Under the pieces are notes generated by a model. The model saw nothing but the letters and a program-made list of their open reading frames with translations, was not told where the DNA came from and did not search any database. Shown here piece by piece: positions 24,185 to 33,609 of a stretch of 40,643 nucleotides of DNA (within the stretch, counting starts at the first letter, position 1; every line of letters starts with the position of its first letter). Position numbers and translations under genes: made by a program. The DNA lies in the NCBI GenBank assembly GCA_028280485.1, contig JANQLS010000013.1, positions 1 through 40,643 on the forward strand, read 5' to 3'. Source of the DNA: Planctomycetota bacterium (GTDB lineage Bacteria > Planctomycetota > UBA8108 > JACQVS01).

Positions 24185-27100
24185 TCATTTTGTTACCACC
24201 ATCTCACCATTCATCACTCGCCAATGCCCAGGGAAGGTACATAAATAAGGATAGCGACCGGGGACTTTTGGAGCTTCGAAGTAGATCGTAAAGCGCCCCT
24301 TGGGATCTACGATGTCGGTGTAAGCTAAAACATCATCCGAAGCAGGAATGTACTGTTTCAATCCGGCTTCTGGATCGGAAATAAGCTTATTAGTGAGTTC
24401 CCCAATTCGCTCTAAGGTGCCCGGTTTAATCAAAGCCCAATTGTGAGGAACGGCATCGGGATTTATAAAAGTTAACGCGATGCGCTCTCCCGCCTTCACT
24501 TCCAACCGTGAAGTTTTAAAAGTGAGACTACTTCCAGCCTCGATCTCTACGACTCGCGCGCCATCCAGCTTTTTTACAAACGGGTTGGGATAACTTTTAG
24601 TTAACGATAGAAGATCGTTCTCCATCGGATGGGCTTGAATGGTCTTGTTGCTGGGCTGATAATTAGGAATTTGGGTAAAAGCCTGATCCAAACGATGCAC
24701 CGTAATAAAAAGTTCGTGTTCGTTCTGAGCACTCGATTGAACCACTAAATGTAATTGGTTCACCGGCTGAAGGTCTGGAATCTCTAAAAACAGCGATTTG
24801 CCGTCAGCAAGGACGTAAGAACTTTTTATCCTCCAAGCATCGTGCCCCTGAACTCGAGGATGCCGAGGGGAGTACTCCTGAGAACCGTAAGCTGAGCTGT
24901 ACCGATAGTTCCACGCCTGAGCAAAATGCCTTTTTGCCTGGGAAGCAATGGTAGTATCGACCGGCCTCGAAAATTGGATAAACACTCCATTTTCATGAAC
25001 TCTAAAACGAATGGGGAGCTGAACCCGATCTTGGGTGTATCGCACTCTTTGGAAACAACCATCGTTCGGAGTGTAACTCCCCCAACCTTGCATACCCGTC
25101 ACGTAGAGTTGTCCATCTAAAGGATGAAACCGCCCCCGATGCGCTCCCGACAAAAACTCACCTTTAAGGGGGACGACCGCCCCCTGTCTTTGCCCCTTCA
25201 CCTTATCCTGAAGAATCAAAAAATGAGTTCCACGCCCAAATGAAAAGTGAATCAGTTGATCTTTCAGGGGCCCCCAGCGCTCACTCGAAACTTGAACTTG
25301 GCCTCCACTTGAGTTGTCGATTCCGCGTGGAAAATAAACTAAAGGCAAGGCGGGCGCTTTACCATTCTTAGGACCTCGGTAGCCAAAAAACGAAGGCTCA
25401 TCTTGCTCCTTAGGCTGAATCGCGCAAACCATCGAAGCGGGAGTCCAACCGCCTTCAGAACAAGGAACCGTAAGCGTTCCATCTTTTTGTAGACCGATGC
25501 CGTCTGGATTCCTAAATCCGGTGGCTAAAACCTCAACGGATTGCCCATCTTTGGAAATCTTGATTAAGCCTTGATTCCCGGAAGCGGTGTAAAAATTTCC
25601 ATCGGCATCGCGCTCTAAGCCACAGATGTAATCATGACCCGATGTCGAAGTTTTATAAGCATTAGAAAAGCAGCGATAATAATCAGCTTCACCATCTTGA
25701 TTGCGATCTTCAAGCAGGGTGATTTGGTCTCGACCTAAGACATAAACTTGATCGTCATGAACCACAAGGCCCAAGGCCTGATGGAGCCCGGAGGCAAAAC
25801 GTTTCCAACGCACTTTTTTCGAAGGGTATTTAAATCCTGAGACATGCCAAACATCTCCTGTCATCGAAGAGACCAGAGCGGAGCCATCAGAAAGGAAGCC
25901 ATGCCCCGAAAGAAACAGCAAGGCTTTCCAAGGATTTTCGAAAGGGAGTTCAATCGAATCGACAGAATAGGGCTTGGATTTTCCCAATTTGATCTGAGTT
26001 TCAAACTCTTGATCCCACTGACCTTTCGGATGATCGATGAGAGCCTTCAGAGGAAAAGTATCAACGGGCTTAACGATACGTTTAAACTTTCCATCTTCAA
26101 TCCAAGGAGTATCGTAGTACTCTTGGCTTCCCACTCGGTAATGAAAGATAACTCGATTAGAGCTGCGAATCAGTCCTAAGTATTTAATATCACCGTTGAA
26201 TTTCAACACATTCGGCTTTTCGACAACTTCCCCCTCCATCAATAATCCGTTGATGAATCCATGTCTAAAGGGAGAAAACTTAAGGAAGCCCCCCTTCCAA
26301 ACCAACTCATAATTTAATGTTTCGGGATTGAAGCAAGTGGCTAATTCCCCTACTTCACCGAAACGCACGCAGATCCCCTTAGCAACAGTGATCCCCCCGC
26401 CCCGGAAAACTCCACTCTGTAAGGAACCGAGATCCGTCTCATTCCAACGTCCATCCTCCCAATCTTTATCTGACTGATTTCCCCAGTGACCTTGCTGCCC
26501 TCCATCCATTCCTGGATAGGCCATCAACAAGCCGTGATGGTTTTGCGCCGCGCGAAAATGTTGGGCCTCCTTGAGGTAAAAATCATAAACGCGCTCTCGA
26601 TTGATGTGATGTTGCCAGTTCGGCCAAGAGGGAGGATCTAAAGGGTCTCGCTTGTAAGTAAAGGTTTTCGGTCCTGACAGATGAGCTTTCGCGTGATGCA
26701 CCATCGAGTGGACCTCATCGGCTTGGACTCCTTTTTCCGTTCCTAAAGTCAGCAAAAAGCTCAACAAGTTTTCTTTCTGCTGTGCCTTCAACGAAGCGAG
26801 TAAATTGTCGGGCATCAAGCTGCCGATTTTACGCTCTAAAACAATATCCTTAAGCGGGATGACTTGCTTAATCCGAGTCACTGAATCGATCACATGAATC
26901 GATTCAGTGTCACGTTTTTGAATGTAAACCTGATGCGTTTCTCCCGATGATAAAACGATTTGACTGGCGACGTACTCTGGAGGAACCACCTTTTGGGGTT
27001 CGAGCACGGCTTGAAGAATTTCTTCAGGACGACGTTCTAAGGCGAGCTTAGACAGATCGGGCCCGACCTTCCCTCCATGACCTTGAATTTGATGGCAAGA

Positions 27101-28708
27101 AAGGCAAGCTAGTTGATCGGAACTAAAAAGCATCAATCCCCGATGAGGATTTCCCTTCTCTTGAGCGTTTAGAATCCACTGAGAGCTTTTTTGTATCTCT
27201 TTTGAATCATTTATTTTCAACTCAGGGGTGTTTGTCGAAGTTTTCGTTTCAACTCGCTTATTCTTGGCATGAGTCCAATAAAAAGCAGGCTTCACCGAAT
27301 CCGTTTTCTGACTCAAATCTTTCACGAATTCCTCGTGAATCCCCTGATACAAAACAACTTGTTCAATCGTTCCTCGATGGCTCAATCCTTCCTCTACCAA
27401 GCGACCCACCCCCAATTTTCCAGGTCGAGAGGATTTGTTTAAAAATGAAACCTTACTTTCACCCACCTTCTTGCCATCGACATACAATCGCACTCGATCC
27501 TCTTCGTAAATCATCCCGAGAAGATGGGACTTTCCATCACAGACATTGGCTTGACTCCGAACATGGTCCGGTTGATAGCCTGGTAAATAAGCCGTCAACG
27601 TACCCGTTCCATTCATCGAGAACAATTCCCAGTGCTCGCCTGAGGGCTTGGTATCACTGGCAACTAAGATGTTATAACCCTTGGAATCTTTTAATTTCGC
27701 TTTGACGATGAGGGTTAAAGGGGGTGTTCGATATTTGGGATCACCCTTGAAGAGTTCACCTGTTCCTTGAACCTCAGGTTGCTTTTTTTTGGGTTTTAAA
27801 GTGCGTGGAACTTTTTTCTCACCGGGAGGAAGGCCCTTTAATTGAGGTAAAATCCAATCCAAACCATCGAGGTTATCTTGCAAACGCTCTCGCACATCAT
27901 CTTGAGTATGGCCGATGATACCGATCGGCCCCTGATAACCCGAATCTTGAATGATCTTTAAAAGCCTCACATCGTGCTCCCCCTCGCCCAAAGGAAGAAT
28001 TTTTTGCCCCTTGCGATCTCCCTCGGTATTCATGCCGTTTAAATTCAAGCACAAGAGGTGAGGCATCATTAATTTTAAATGTTTCTTAAACTCGGTGATG
28101 TGAGCGTGACCGTGATGCTGGTTGTATACAATACCCACGTGAGGAGCATTGTGATGCTTTTTTAGATACTCACAAACGGCAATTAAATTTTGGGGCTCTC
28201 CTCCCCAGCCGCCGTGATTGTAGAGCCCTAAGCGACTCCCCAATTTTCGAGTTTTTTCAACTAAAGGAAGAAATCGCTCTGCTGCTAAACGCACTCTCTC
28301 TTCCTGAGTTTTTGCCTGAGGAGAACTCAGAGTTTTCCAAATCTGGGGCTTGAGTCCGTACTTCTTAAAGAGCTGAAAGGCTTTTTCGTGAGCATCCCAA
28401 AACGCAAAGTACTCGATACCCTTCCTTTTATACTGAAGAATTTCTTCTTCGAAGCTCGCGACGTGATGCTGCCGCCAATCATAAGCCACCCGTCGAAGGC
28501 CAAGCTCTCTCACCATTTTCGCTCGCTCTTCAGGCCCTCTCTTTTTGCCATCGAAAGGCACGATGCACCAAGCGACGAGATTAGAGCGCCTAAAGGGAGA
28601 GAGGTTTTCTTTCTGACTTCCGGCGGTGTGAGATTGAAATTGACCGACGGTACAAGAGGTGAGCGAGGTCGTTAAAAGAACAAAACTCGCAAGAATTTGA
28701 TGCTTCAT
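24185..28708 (-). CDS. Exported TIM-barrel/LamG/cytochrome c/propeller/cupredoxin fusion
   Basis: 1507-aa exported protein. The ATG at 28708 is chosen; a TTG at 28720 lies among repeats. A lipoprotein-like signal (SLTSC) is followed by: a xylose-isomerase-like TIM barrel (about 40-295, WCIVPFDGKKRGPEER, YNHGGWGGEP); a LamG/concanavalin domain (about 325-460); a TIGR02603-like haem domain with C535-LS-C538-H539 (CxxCH) and SLMPDNLL; a DUF6797-like region (about 665-890); a sorbosone-dehydrogenase-like propeller (about 915-1230, ATGFRNPDGIG); and a C-terminal azurin/plastocyanin-like domain with ligands His1422, Cys1490, His1495 and Met1499 (VPHNW...YLCTFPGHWRVM). Known planctomycete and verrucomicrobial relatives combine several of these. 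Electron flow from a sugar through haem to copper is my inference. Confidence 0.85.
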   Translation of the reverse strand: MKHQILASFVLLTTSLTSCTVGQFQSHTAGSQKENLSPFRRSNLVAWCIVPFDGKKRGPEERAKMVRELGLRRVAYDWRQHHVASFEEEILQYKRKGIEYFAFWDAHEKAFQLFKKYGLKPQIWKTLSSPQAKTQEERVRLAAERFLPLVEKTRKLGSRLGLYNHGGWGGEPQNLIAVCEYLKKHHNAPHVGIVYNQHHGHAHITEFKKHLKLMMPHLLCLNLNGMNTEGDRKGQKILPLGEGEHDVRLLKIIQDSGYQGPIGIIGHTQDDVRERLQDNLDGLDWILPQLKGLPPGEKKVPRTLKPKKKQPEVQGTGELFKGDPKYRTPPLTLIVKAKLKDSKGYNILVASDTKPSGEHWELFSMNGTGTLTAYLPGYQPDHVRSQANVCDGKSHLLGMIYEEDRVRLYVDGKKVGESKVSFLNKSSRPGKLGVGRLVEEGLSHRGTIEQVVLYQGIHEEFVKDLSQKTDSVKPAFYWTHAKNKRVETKTSTNTPELKINDSKEIQKSSQWILNAQEKGNPHRGLMLFSSDQLACLSCHQIQGHGGKVGPDLSKLALERRPEEILQAVLEPQKVVPPEYVASQIVLSSGETHQVYIQKRDTESIHVIDSVTRIKQVIPLKDIVLERKIGSLMPDNLLASLKAQQKENLLSFLLTLGTEKGVQADEVHSMVHHAKAHLSGPKTFTYKRDPLDPPSWPNWQHHINRERVYDFYLKEAQHFRAAQNHHGLLMAYPGMDGGQQGHWGNQSDKDWEDGRWNETDLGSLQSGVFRGGGITVAKGICVRFGEVGELATCFNPETLNYELVWKGGFLKFSPFRHGFINGLLMEGEVVEKPNVLKFNGDIKYLGLIRSSNRVIFHYRVGSQEYYDTPWIEDGKFKRIVKPVDTFPLKALIDHPKGQWDQEFETQIKLGKSKPYSVDSIELPFENPWKALLFLSGHGFLSDGSALVSSMTGDVWHVSGFKYPSKKVRWKRFASGLHQALGLVVHDDQVYVLGRDQITLLEDRNQDGEADYYRCFSNAYKTSTSGHDYICGLERDADGNFYTASGNQGLIKISKDGQSVEVLATGFRNPDGIGLQKDGTLTVPCSEGGWTPASMVCAIQPKEQDEPSFFGYRGPKNGKAPALPLVYFPRGIDNSSGGQVQVSSERWGPLKDQLIHFSFGRGTHFLILQDKVKGQRQGAVVPLKGEFLSGAHRGRFHPLDGQLYVTGMQGWGSYTPNDGCFQRVRYTQDRVQLPIRFRVHENGVFIQFSRPVDTTIASQAKRHFAQAWNYRYSSAYGSQEYSPRHPRVQGHDAWRIKSSYVLADGKSLFLEIPDLQPVNQLHLVVQSSAQNEHELFITVHRLDQAFTQIPNYQPSNKTIQAHPMENDLLSLTKSYPNPFVKKLDGARVVEIEAGSSLTFKTSRLEVKAGERIALTFINPDAVPHNWALIKPGTLERIGELTNKLISDPEAGLKQYIPASDDVLAYTDIVDPKGRFTIYFEAPKVPGRYPYLCTFPGHWRVMNGEMVVTK

Positions 28709-28732
28709 AGTGATAGCCAATCTCGGCTTTTT

Positions 28733-28816: not shown

Positions 28817-31800
28817 TTATAAGCTGATCGTAATACCTTTTTCCCCATCGGATTCCCGGATCATGATCGTTCTTCGAAAGTAAACGGGAGAACTATCTGA
28901 AATGAGCCGATAGCGTACAGACAAACGATATTCTCCCTTTCCCAACCCTCCGATTTCAAATCGCCCCTGAGGATTGAGCTTAGCCTCTTTGCTTCGAAAC
29001 AAAGGGATGGGACTCGAGGCACTCCTGGAGGACGAACGAGAGCTTAAACTCATCCTCAATGAGCCGGATTCGACCTTTCGGTCGTTCCTTAAACTGATGA
29101 GGAGTGTCGTCCCTGAAGCCATGAATAATTTTATGTTTTGAGAACGGGAGGTCGCAAGTCCTTCTTGAAGGGTGAACTCTCCCACATCTCGCCCAACAAA
29201 CTCATCGTGCCGCACGGCTAAGCGGTAAATCCCATCCGGTAAGCCCTTCAAGGCAAAACTCCCAAATTCGGAGGATGTGGCTCGACCCGATCCCCAATCC
29301 GTTTTGACTCCAGGAGGTCGAGAAATGGGAACGTAACGAATCCTTCCTCGAGTGGGTTCTTGCACTTGCTTTAAAGCATAGATACGTGCACCTGAAATTC
29401 CGTTGCCTCTACCATCCTGAACCATTCCGTAAAGGGCTCCCTTTTCTTCCAGGAAGAGCTCTAATTCTCCTTCTCTCTCGGACTCTAAAGGAATCTGAAA
29501 TTTAACCGGCTCTGCCTCTAAATGATTTTCAGCAGAAACATGGGCGATGTAATCTCCGGGAGGTAAGCCAGACAAATCAAATCGACCATCTTCAGTTTCA
29601 AATTTTTTACCTTTTAACAACTTCTTAAGTTGAGCACTCGATAGCTGATCGGCGAGAGAGTATTCGAGTCTCAAGGTGAAGTGTTGAACGGGATCTCCGC
29701 TAAATGCCCCTAAGACAATCCCTTTGATATCGAGCAAGGGTTCTAAGGGAATTCGAAGGTCCCGCTCCCCCGCTTCGACGCCGTAGAGGGTCGTCGTGGC
29801 AAATCCATCCGCTGAAACCTTCAGGTTATACTTCGTATTGGCGAGGCGATTCAAAACAAAGAAACCACGAATATCACTCTTAGCCGATTCCGAATACCAA
29901 TAATCTTTGACTTGAGTTTGAGTGGGGAGCTTCGCTTCGATGTCAGCTAACTCTAAACCAAATCCTTGATCATCGGTGATTTCTCCTGAGATCACTTTTT
30001 CCGATTCGAGAACGATTTCTAAAACTTGCTGCGAGTTGGGCTCCAACCAAAAGGGTTCCGTGAGCTTGGAGAGATGACCCTTTGCATGGGCAATCAACTG
30101 CCATTCCCCTCGAGAGGCTTTGGAAAAGAAAAACTTCCCGTCAGCTCGGGAACGAGTTGAAAATTGTCCTTCGTACCGAGAATTCGAGTTTTCGGTTTTT
30201 GCTTGTTTCTTCACTCCTTCTGCAGGAGAGCTTAGATCCATTTTTCGTAGATAAAGCTTCGCCTCCGGAAGAACAGTTCCATTCTCATTTAAAACGATAC
30301 CTTCAAATGGAATGGAAGATTCAAGCTCGATATCGAAGCTTTCCAAGGGATGGAGATCTTCAGTGATTTCAAACGACTCCGTTAGCTTTCGTGCGTATCC
30401 GGCTCCTTCGACTAAAAGTTTGTAGACACCTTGATTTTGAATTCCTAATTTATAAGCACCATCGGTATCCGAGTAAGTAAAGCGTTGAGCATCAACCAGC
30501 TTTCCTTCTGAGTCTTCGCTCGTTCCAATCCATTTGAATAAAGAGATTTTCATGCGCTGGGAGACCGGTGATTTTTGATCTTTCAATTCTCCTTGAACAA
30601 AGCCGGAGGGCTCGAGTTCAACCGTTTGTTGACGAGTTTCGGAATCTTCAGAAGAAATAAGAAGCGGCCCAACTTCTAAAGACTTGTACATCGGTGCTTC
30701 GATAAAAAGCTGATGCTCCCCTTTACCGATTTGTTTGGATCGGTAACTTCCTTCTGAAAATCGAGCCAGCTTAAATCGAAGTTCATGCCCTCCATTTTCC
30801 TGAGTGAGCGAAAGAGAGTAAGAGCCTTTATAAGCTTGAGGAATGAGAAAGGCAGTAGCTGTGGTAACAGGCTCTTTAGTTTGTTGATCTACAACCTGAA
30901 CTTCAAAGTCTAAATAAGTACCGAGTTCAATTTTCAAATCGAGAGTGCCAACCTCGACTTGCCCTACTAACTTTCGTTCGTAACCTTCTCCCCAGGCTTC
31001 AAGCCAATAGGATCCCTCATCGAGTTGATTGAACTCAAATTGCCCGGCGGAATCAGTAGTCGCTCTAAAGTTTTCGAATCCCAATTTCCGGGGAGTGATT
31101 TCTACACTTGATGAGGAAGAATTTAATGAAGGTTCCTTAGACGAAGAACTCGATTTATCTAAATAGAGCTCTCCCCCGGGGAGCTTAAAGGCCTCGATCC
31201 CAATTAAATTCAAGGGTTGGCCTTGGTCGTCGACCACCTGCCCTCGAATCAATCCACCCGCTTCAAGCTCGACCGTAATTTCATTGTCCTGAGGTCGTGA
31301 ACCAGATCGAAGTGAGACCAGAGGAAGGAAAAGGGATTGATATCCTGAAGCATGAACTTCTAATCGATAATCTCCTTCAACCAAGTTAGAGAGAATACAA
31401 AATCCCTCCGAGTTGGATTTAAAAATTTCCGTTCCCTGTGAATTTTGAGGCACTTGATAGAGAGCGATTGCCGCGGGATCTTCTTCAGTTTGAGAAATCA
31501 ATGAAAATTGAATATTGGCTCCCTCGATGGGACGCGAGTTCTCATCGACGACCTTCACCTTGAAGGTCACTTCCTCTTTAAGGATCACTTTAAAACCATC
31601 GAGGCCCGGTGGGATTTGATCTAAAACAACGGTTCCAAATCCCTCAGCTTGTGCTTTTAAAGAGTAGAACCCGGAATAGAGTTTTGAAAATTTGAAAGAA
31701 CCATCTGAAGCAGATTCAGTATTAAAAGTTCGCGACACCGTCAAGATTTCAAGGAGCGCTGAACTTGAGATCCAACCGAACTCTGAACGATCGTTGAGAG

Positions 31801-32428
31801 GCTGCTCAAATTGGAGGGAAAGTTGAGCCTTTGGTACAACTTGACTCTGTTCATTTAAAACTCGCCCTTGGATGGATACCCAGGGAAAAATTTGAATCTC
31901 AGTTTCGTAACGGGAACTTTCCTCGGTAAGTTCGAAGGGATCTGTTGCTTTCACTCCCTGCCTGCGACTCCAGGCAACGAGTGAATAAGTTCCGCTCCCG
32001 ATCTGAGCAAAGCGGAACTCCCCCTTGGAATTCGTTTTCGTCACTTTAGGCTGACCGAAGATCGAGGAGAGTTCTTCCCATCGGCTCGTTGCTTCTTCTC
32101 GCAAGTTCAAATGGGAGCGAGGTACAGCGTAGAGCCTCACTTCTACTTGAGCTAATACCTGCTGATCTGCTGCGAGAACTCGCCCCACGATCTCTTGTTG
32201 CCCGTCGTTGACTTGGAGGGGGGTGAGGGCGGAAGAAAAATCTCCTTCTACCCAGCTTTCATCCTGGGAAGAAGGAGAGTGAGTTATCGAATTCGAGTCG
32301 CTCTTTGACGCAGAAGGAACACGAAGCTCCGGAGCGAGTTTCCAATCATGAAAAATGACTAAAGCTAAAGCCAATACAAGAAGTAAGCCCCCCAGCGACA
32401 AACTTAATGCGACCCAAACTTTCTTCAT
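28817..32428 (-). CDS. Membrane-anchored protein with many carboxypeptidase-regulatory-like modules
   Basis: 1203-aa protein. One N-terminal transmembrane segment (about 5-27, VALSLSLGGLLLVLALALVIF) anchors a Ser/Glu-rich linker and then ten or eleven beta-sandwich modules of the carboxypeptidase-regulatory-like/Cna-B type. Each module opens with a G-x-V strand such as VGRVLAADQQVL, QGRVLNEQSQVV, RGQVVDDQGQPL, EGIVLNENGTVL, SGEITDDQGFGL or YGMVQDGRGNGI, and closes with YxLxxxAxGF-type strands. Such arrays are structural or adhesive; no enzyme is seen. The gene starts 8 bp after the selenoprotein-like gene and has no clear ribosome site, so it probably depends on coupled translation. Its role next to a redox protein is unexplained. 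Confidence 0.85.
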   Translation of the reverse strand: MKKVWVALSLSLGGLLLVLALALVIFHDWKLAPELRVPSASKSDSNSITHSPSSQDESWVEGDFSSALTPLQVNDGQQEIVGRVLAADQQVLAQVEVRLYAVPRSHLNLREEATSRWEELSSIFGQPKVTKTNSKGEFRFAQIGSGTYSLVAWSRRQGVKATDPFELTEESSRYETEIQIFPWVSIQGRVLNEQSQVVPKAQLSLQFEQPLNDRSEFGWISSSALLEILTVSRTFNTESASDGSFKFSKLYSGFYSLKAQAEGFGTVVLDQIPPGLDGFKVILKEEVTFKVKVVDENSRPIEGANIQFSLISQTEEDPAAIALYQVPQNSQGTEIFKSNSEGFCILSNLVEGDYRLEVHASGYQSLFLPLVSLRSGSRPQDNEITVELEAGGLIRGQVVDDQGQPLNLIGIEAFKLPGGELYLDKSSSSSKEPSLNSSSSSVEITPRKLGFENFRATTDSAGQFEFNQLDEGSYWLEAWGEGYERKLVGQVEVGTLDLKIELGTYLDFEVQVVDQQTKEPVTTATAFLIPQAYKGSYSLSLTQENGGHELRFKLARFSEGSYRSKQIGKGEHQLFIEAPMYKSLEVGPLLISSEDSETRQQTVELEPSGFVQGELKDQKSPVSQRMKISLFKWIGTSEDSEGKLVDAQRFTYSDTDGAYKLGIQNQGVYKLLVEGAGYARKLTESFEITEDLHPLESFDIELESSIPFEGIVLNENGTVLPEAKLYLRKMDLSSPAEGVKKQAKTENSNSRYEGQFSTRSRADGKFFFSKASRGEWQLIAHAKGHLSKLTEPFWLEPNSQQVLEIVLESEKVISGEITDDQGFGLELADIEAKLPTQTQVKDYWYSESAKSDIRGFFVLNRLANTKYNLKVSADGFATTTLYGVEAGERDLRIPLEPLLDIKGIVLGAFSGDPVQHFTLRLEYSLADQLSSAQLKKLLKGKKFETEDGRFDLSGLPPGDYIAHVSAENHLEAEPVKFQIPLESEREGELELFLEEKGALYGMVQDGRGNGISGARIYALKQVQEPTRGRIRYVPISRPPGVKTDWGSGRATSSEFGSFALKGLPDGIYRLAVRHDEFVGRDVGEFTLQEGLATSRSQNIKLFMASGTTLLISLRNDRKVESGSLRMSLSSRSSSRSASSPIPLFRSKEAKLNPQGRFEIGGLGKGEYRLSVRYRLISDSSPVYFRRTIMIRESDGEKGITISL

Positions 32429-32436
32429 GCGTTATT

Positions 32437-33609
32437 TCAATTATTTAAATAACCTGGCACCCAGCCCCTGGATCCTTGGGGAGGAACGGCGTCCGCGACA
32501 TCTTTTCCATCGGCGAGCTCAAAACTCACCACCAGAGGAAATTTTCCCTTCGGCGCATTTCGGGTGTAAGTCCCCTCCCCCCAGAACAAACCTTTGGCGA
32601 CGATATCGAGCCGAGTAACTTTCCCGCCTTTAGTTTCGACAACCCCGAGAAGATCCGCTTGGTAGCCACGATTTTTTTTCTCAGTTTCTAAGTGAGCTTT
32701 CCCCGTCAATCGTCCCTTCTTAAGGTCTATCTTTATGTTCTTAATTTCTTTCTTACGCCACATTGGAGGCTCCCCCCTCGTATTATCGACGAGATGGAAT
32801 CGGGCGAGTCTCTGGGCTAACTTTTCGGGGAACTCACCCTTCACGAGCTGTGAGTGTTCTTTTTGGGTCAGCCAAAGATTGTCTCGTGAAATAGAGGATT
32901 GGAAGATTTTCTTCCACTTGTTTTCAGTGGGTTCATATCCACTGAGAATCTTTGCCCTCACTCTCAAAACTAAACCACCGGTTGGAGGCTTAGGATTGTA
33001 GCGTTGATCGGGGTCACCTTTTTTGATGGCCTTCACTTTTTTGGGCTTAAATTTCTTCAATGCCCTTTGCATCAAATTGATGACGCGCTGAGGATCCCGG
33101 TTGTTGGTATAACCCAAAAATGTTCCATCGGATGCAGCAATGTAAAGCCCTTGAGTGGTTCCCTTAAAATTATTACGAGGGCCGCTACCAGCGATCTTTC
33201 GATAGAACTCTCCCTCGGCATCTTTCTGGCGGCGTTGGTAAGCTTGATCGATGGCGATGGGAATGAATTGGGTCTTGAGTACTTTAACGATTTTTGGATG
33301 GGCGAAGGTCGACTCACGGTCGAGAACACCATTGTTTCATGTACAACCTAAGGGGTGACCATCCATCGCCCAGATAAAGAGGGGCTTCTTTTCTTCGCCC
33401 GCAACTTTTTGCCCATCAAGAAGAGAAATCTTCCAGGGAATGGAAAGCCAAGCTTCCTTACCCGTGGGCTGAAGTTCCTTGTGGTATTTTTTGAATTCCT
33501 CAACCGTCAAGCCCGACGGCGATGAAGGCTCTGCATGAAGGAAAACTGAAATGCAACCGATTGCCAAAAGAATGATCGAATACTTCTTAAATAAGGCAAG
33601 AGCGTTCAT
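32437..33609 (-). CDS. Probable thioredoxin-fold selenoprotein (in-frame TGA = Sec91)
   Basis: 390-aa exported protein if the TGA at 33339-33337 is read as selenocysteine; the TGA splits the frame into 90 + 299 codons with no other stop and no frame change. Signal about 1-26 (LLAIGCISVFLHA-E). The thioredoxin-like region (about 52-165) has KKPLFIWAMDGHPLGCT before the TGA and NNGVLDRESTFAHP after it, giving a C89-T90-U91 redox centre, then FIPIAIDQ and GLYIAASDGTFLG strands typical of the fold. Residues 166-390 form a second, lysine-rich, beta-rich domain of unknown type. It is followed after 8 bp by the 28817-32428 gene. The alternative is a pseudogene with one nonsense mutation, judged less likely because the 299 codons after TGA remain intact. 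The Sec machinery is not in the window. Confidence 0.75.
33307..33330 (-). promoter_or_regulatory. Candidate bacterial SECIS hairpin
   Basis: In the mRNA, TCGAC and GTCGA form a 5-bp stem (33319-33323 with 33309-33313) around the loop CGTGA. A lower GG/CC pair lies beyond a 5-nt 5' bulge. The loop begins 18 nt after the TGA and has a G in its first two positions, in line with the general bacterial SECIS layout. The stem is short, so support is moderate. Confidence 0.45.

Follow-up and report, generated by a model that had tools for sequence, protein, structure and literature searches.

Gene structure and reading frame

The window analysed here is the whole 40,643-nucleotide stretch of contig JANQLS010000013.1 (positions 1 to 40,643) from the Planctomycetota bacterium assembly GCA_028280485.1 (GTDB lineage Bacteria; Planctomycetota; UBA8108; JACQVS01). 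Its minus strand carries a gene interrupted by one in-frame TGA, for which a preliminary description, made from the sequence alone, had proposed a candidate selenoprotein, namely a thioredoxin-like protein with a Cys-Thr-selenocysteine (Sec) centre. The central features of the gene are as follows:

32440..33609, minus strand: coding sequence of 390 codons, predicted Sec at codon 91 (ATG at 33609, stop TGA at 32437-32439)
33337..33339, minus strand: in-frame TGA, predicted Sec codon (U91), based on the frame and on retention of the TGA in relatives
33343..33345, minus strand: codon of Cys89, which is predicted to be the resolving Cys of a Cys-x-Sec (CxU) centre
33309..33323, minus strand: core of a predicted Sec insertion sequence (SECIS) hairpin, in which a 5-bp stem (UCGAC/GUCGA) closes the loop CGUGA (33314-33318)

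Re-reading of the sequence reproduced the coordinates, frame and active-site motif (GHPLGC-T-U-NNG) of that description. The single internal stop is the TGA at 33339-33337, and the frame then stays open up to the TGA at 32439-32437, giving 390 residues; each of the other five frames over the same stretch contains 10 to 24 stops. Downstream of the TGA, mismatches against seven relatives reach 0.61-0.72 at third codon positions, 0.32-0.53 at first and 0.21-0.45 at second positions, and divergence is concentrated at third positions before the TGA as well as after it. This bias beyond the TGA is the signature of translated sequence.

Selenocysteine machinery

The preliminary description had proposed a check of the genome for selA, selB, selC and selD, and all four were found above cut-off: selA with 576.6 bits, selB with 352.9, selD with 355.3 and tRNA-Sec with 70 bits and the anticodon tca. 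A search with the read-through protein in 98 genomes (its own and 97 relatives) revealed the family in 40 of them. SelA was above cut-off in 39 of these 40 genomes, compared to 36 of the 58 without the family (Fisher p 2e-5); the remaining family genome, G024, has tRNA-Sec above cut-off. Two selD genes were found in the window's genome (L048, G000:C10:24257-25174; L049, G000:C65:12221-13141). One of them has an in-frame TGA, and SelD itself is likely a selenoprotein in this genome.

Conservation of the TGA and distribution of the family

An in-frame TGA was present in 60 of the 62 matches from the 98 genomes, the other two being C-terminal pieces. Within the phylum, a profile built from 21 members matched 123 of 392 genomes, and a degenerate motif pattern containing the TGA was found in 76 of the 392 (48 of 267 genera), with no hit for the reversed-pattern control among the rows listed. 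Across 84,980 species, relatives are encoded in 310 stretches. The named loci are the best 80 of these 310 and are labelled mostly Planctomycetota and Verrucomicrobiota. One carrier of the family is Planctomycetes bacterium K23_9 (CP036526.1, locus L114), with the motif GHPLGCTU. Overall, the site was read in 123 rows from 122 fetched loci and is TGA in 115: in 80/80 named loci, in 30/30 rows from the 98-genome search and in 5/13 rows from loci picked for lacking a stop or for being distant. Some records occur twice in this census, and the 115 Sec rows comprise 103 distinct 48-nt stretches. A read error, considered in the preliminary description, is countered by the retention of the TGA in genomes labelled with both phyla. 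Two distant paralogues in the window's own genome, L145 (G000:C52) and L146 (G000:C203), also have TGA at the site, but L145 reads GRTUGAC there, a UxxC centre, and L146 reads GVCUAAG; both are without the Cys at -2.

A protein database search gave 1788 matches. Among the 120 matches listed, only one covers the full length; 116 start a few codons past the TGA and three slightly later. When the search was restricted to the site, the window protein had four matches and a protein from the other branch had one: three fragments ending at GCT, just before the TGA, one Trp form (P0013, a metagenome member) and one Ala form (P0126). The expectation that gene callers would split the protein at the TGA agrees with the database record. 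Two of the N-terminal fragments ending at GCT, P0124 and P0123, have an extra N-terminal part, for which P0124 shows a weak cupredoxin-like match, and some members of the family are likely fusions.

A SECIS-like hairpin downstream of the TGA

The stem of the predicted hairpin starts 13 nt past the TGA, an outer 4-bp stem is also predicted in the window sequence, and the loop in the window's branch of the family is CGUGN. Pairing holds in 99.3% of cells among 83 distinct sequences of this branch, compared to 5 to 41% with the partner slid. Changes on both sides of a pair were counted in 15 cells, versus 1.0 in shuffles, and 0 of 500 shuffles were as high. Two pairs covary: 18-30 (C-G 71, U-A 5, G-C 5, G-U 2) and 21-27 (C-G 80, U-A 3). 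Both link third positions of different codons, for which selection on the protein would not readily offer an explanation. The criteria for bacterial SECIS (bSECIS) elements quoted in PMC13188914 are a loop of 3-9 nt, a stem of 4-16 bp, G in the first two loop positions, a distance of 16-37 nt from the UGA and a minimum free energy (MFE) of -7.5 or lower. The window hairpin lies within these ranges, with a loop of 5 nt whose second position is G, a stem of 5 bp, a spacing of 18 nt and an MFE of -9.9 kcal/mol for 48 nt, outer stem included.

Hairpins of the second branch have another shape, with single hairpins of 6-8 bp in many sequences; in Sec rows such as L022 and L035 they consist of 7-8 bp closed by a 3-nt loop, in a register unlike that seen in relatives on the window's side of the family. 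Support from compensatory stem changes applies to the window's branch and does not extend to the second.

Active-site residues

Cys is found at -2 in 109 of the 115 Sec rows, and the +3 position is Gly in 113, Val in L125 and Cys only in L145. The "classic Sec position" of the preliminary description is therefore correct only in part: the +3 Cys of UxxC proteins is Gly here, and the partner Cys is at -2. Similarly, of the Cys or Sec proposed for position 91 in homologues, Sec was found and Cys was not. Cys at the site is absent from the 123 site rows, from P0013 and P0126 and from both site-restricted protein searches; the scope of this negative is set by protein searches that depend on 5-letter words in common, by genome searches in one phylum and by named loci that are the best 80 of 310. 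Cys at the site does exist in more distant thioredoxin-like families.

The eight non-Sec rows consist of three with Ser, one with Asp and four with a changed loop, for which the profile puts Ser (three) or Pro (one) at the site column; all eight come from loci picked for lacking a stop, so the ratio of Sec to non-Sec gives no prevalence. Together with P0013 and P0126, these ten forms require six changes on the tree, at least four by well-supported branches, with some long branches unsure in place and the root not known. The -2 Cys is also gone in all eight forms read from DNA and is kept in P0013 and P0126; the joint loss would fit a Cys/Sec pair lost together. SelA and tRNA-Sec were not above cut-off in G121, G193 and G304 (61% complete), which have altered loops, whereas both were above cut-off in G181, G189, G315, G133 and G374, which also have non-Sec rows. 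The absence of Sec is therefore not a simple result of the absence of the machinery.

Predicted fold and comparison with known families

The domain organization, as predicted, is as follows:

33532..33609, minus strand: predicted hydrophobic signal peptide spanning residues 1-26, with cleavage near LHA/EP (sequence read by eye; low-confidence predicted helix 5-23)
33037..33462, minus strand: thioredoxin-like domain, residues 50-191 (predicted fold)
32440..33000, minus strand: C-terminal domain, residues 204-390, strands and helices (mean predicted local distance difference test, pLDDT, of 92.9 in the model)

The predicted model is similar to the thioredoxin fold over the whole domain, spans the TGA and places Sec91 just before helix 92-99, which supports the thioredoxin-like nature suggested earlier. 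The C-terminal domain had no clear structural match. A sequence profile search of solved structures gave no matches, and no NCBIfam family matched the 21 members at E 0.01.

The nearest named family is VPGUxxT type 2 (NCBIfam NF041383, OS_HP5), a distant relative. It too has a thioredoxin-like domain in which Sec lies close to where helix 1 begins, it exceeds its cut-off in 7 of the 98 genomes searched, and it matches residues 56-188 of the window protein in a profile-profile comparison (probability 89.5, E 2e-6). However, its cut-off of 275 bits is not reached by the window protein (13.7) or P0013 (18.7), and it differs in the UxxC centre of the members read and in its C-terminal part, and some of its members (L148, L153) carry Cys in place of Sec. 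The register between the two families is unsure: the ungapped alignment places Sec on Sec, whereas hhalign pairs Cys89 of the window protein with their Sec and the window Sec with their second Cys. Two VPGUxxT type 2 proteins, L151 and L152, have a second in-frame TGA within a GMTUYWxGE stretch and are likely double selenoproteins; we take this stretch to resemble the MsrA active site.

Compared to the Thioredoxin_7 (PF13899), DsbD-gamma, AGR and ERp19 folds, the window family lacks CxxC and has an extra GHPLG loop and the C-terminal domain. PF13899 did not match the window protein, although 2 of the 21 members match it (best E 0.0011), and the best Pfam score, that of P0013, was 22.9 of the 27 bits needed. 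SELENOF (Sep15), a eukaryotic selenoprotein of the endoplasmic reticulum, also has CxU in a thioredoxin-like domain within a secretory compartment, and a role in the reduction of disulfides in misfolded proteins has been suggested for it (PMC9304195); we liken it to the window protein by mode of working only, not by sequence. The thioredoxin-like selenoprotein Sec.1 (Thioredoxin_3) is a bacterial CxU protein (PMC9312934), but PF13192 was not among the matches of the window protein or the members. The screen of the work that it comes from required three or more TGA/Cys pairs (PMC5330540) and would miss the window family. In Table 1 of PMC13188914, which holds 119 families, the CxU entries concern other domains only; the comparison by sequence covered those entries of the table that have a Pfam or NCBIfam model.

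Genomic neighbourhood

A 1203-aa gene with six CarboxypepD_reg stretches (window 28817-32428, minus strand) starts 8 nt past the stop of the selenoprotein gene, and the two likely form one transcript in this genome. This neighbour is absent from the 25 largest neighbour clusters. Once fragments of the selenoprotein gene and antisense open reading frames (ORFs) are set aside, no cluster occurs in more than 13 of the 81 loci (80 named plus the window); flanks were partial, as many contigs are short. Further on, a 1511-aa ORF (window 24185-28720, minus strand) joins AP_endonuc_2, DUF6797, DUF7133 and a plastocyanin-like copper domain.

Proposed mechanism and alternative explanations

Taken together, the sel genes, the conserved TGA and the SECIS-like hairpin with compensatory changes support a selenoprotein, and, at the level of sequence, the CxU and the lack of Cys in the members read accompany them. 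We consider it probable that the gene encodes an exported thiol-redox selenoprotein; the thioredoxin fold and Sec insertion are predicted, and export, also predicted, is likely. The UGA at codon 91 would be decoded as Sec with the help of the hairpin just downstream. For the catalytic cycle we infer that Sec91 would act as the nucleophile attacking an oxidised substrate, Cys89 would resolve the intermediate by forming a selenenylsulfide with Sec91, and a thiol donor would reduce it again. The probable role of the C-terminal domain is to bind the substrate or a partner.

Several observations weigh against this interpretation. Cys89 and Sec91 are two residues apart, which implies a strained ring. 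The -2 Cys is missing in 6 of the 115 Sec rows (in three of them a Cys is at -1 instead, in the other three at neither position), and one of those with neither, the paralogue L145, has UxxC instead; the CxU cycle therefore cannot hold for all members. P0126 has Ala at the site and keeps the -2 Cys. The window hairpin alone is unremarkable in stability (z -1.34, with 20 of 200 shuffles folding as well); its 15-nt core alone has -4.2 kcal/mol (-9.1 with the outer stem), and the energy limit is reached only with the outer stem. Two coarser covariation measures were not above shuffles (43 and 123 of 500), the covariation shuffles ignore the relatedness of the sequences, and in the second branch (23 of the 115 Sec rows) RNAalifold gave no common fold among 20 distinct sequences. 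Foldseek alone produced no match within E 0.001, the best being 7tkv_A at 4.2e-3, and no conserved neighbour points to a substrate.

The same selenoprotein might instead be a peroxidase, with Sec91 reducing peroxides as in glutathione peroxidase, Cys89 resolving the selenenic acid and no disulfide substrate involved; we regard this as unlikely, though well ahead of the explanations that dispense with Sec. Reading of the UGA as Trp, or near-cognate read-through, would predict the Trp found at the site in P0013. However, the gene's own terminator is TGA, Trp occurs in one of the ten non-Sec members read, the others having Ser, Asp, Ala or another residue, and the full Sec machinery, the co-occurrence with selA and the covarying hairpin make this explanation very improbable. 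A true stop, with two genes, a pseudogene or a sequencing error, would account for the 119 of 120 listed database matches that start past the TGA and the three others that end just before it. Against this stand the TGA motif in 48 of 267 genera while third positions vary freely on both sides, the open frame past the TGA in the 30 rows followed beyond it and the predicted fold that spans it, and the true stop is refuted for practical purposes.

Implications

The window family is probably a real and unreported selenoprotein family. No report of it was found in the literature searched, although Table S9 of PMC4807772, which holds candidates of two planctomycetes, may include a member. It is notable for the lack of Cys homologues within the limits of our searches. 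Cys-containing homologues now appear to exist for all known selenoproteins, as stated in the deep-Sep paper (PMC12013277); they are a usual trait of selenoproteins, not a condition of membership. We lean, with some reserve, to the view that this is a selenium-obligate, secreted thioredoxin-fold family of Planctomycetota and Verrucomicrobiota, in which the site is Sec or is lost (Ser, Asp, Ala, Trp) and never becomes Cys, and that it is the first selenoprotein family known to lack Cys homologues. Such a family would have escaped notice because SECIS-independent screens look for TGA/Cys pairs (PMC13188914) and gene callers cut at the TGA.

This widespread family was likely overlooked because databases cut the protein in two. 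If true, a large family without Cys homologues would show what screens for Cys/TGA pairs miss and would likely allow many truncated entries to be corrected. Since non-Sec members replace Sec by Ser, Asp, Ala, Trp or some other residue but never by Cys, the chemistry likely needs selenium, and the old question of whether some chemistry requires selenium over sulfur would become testable in this family.
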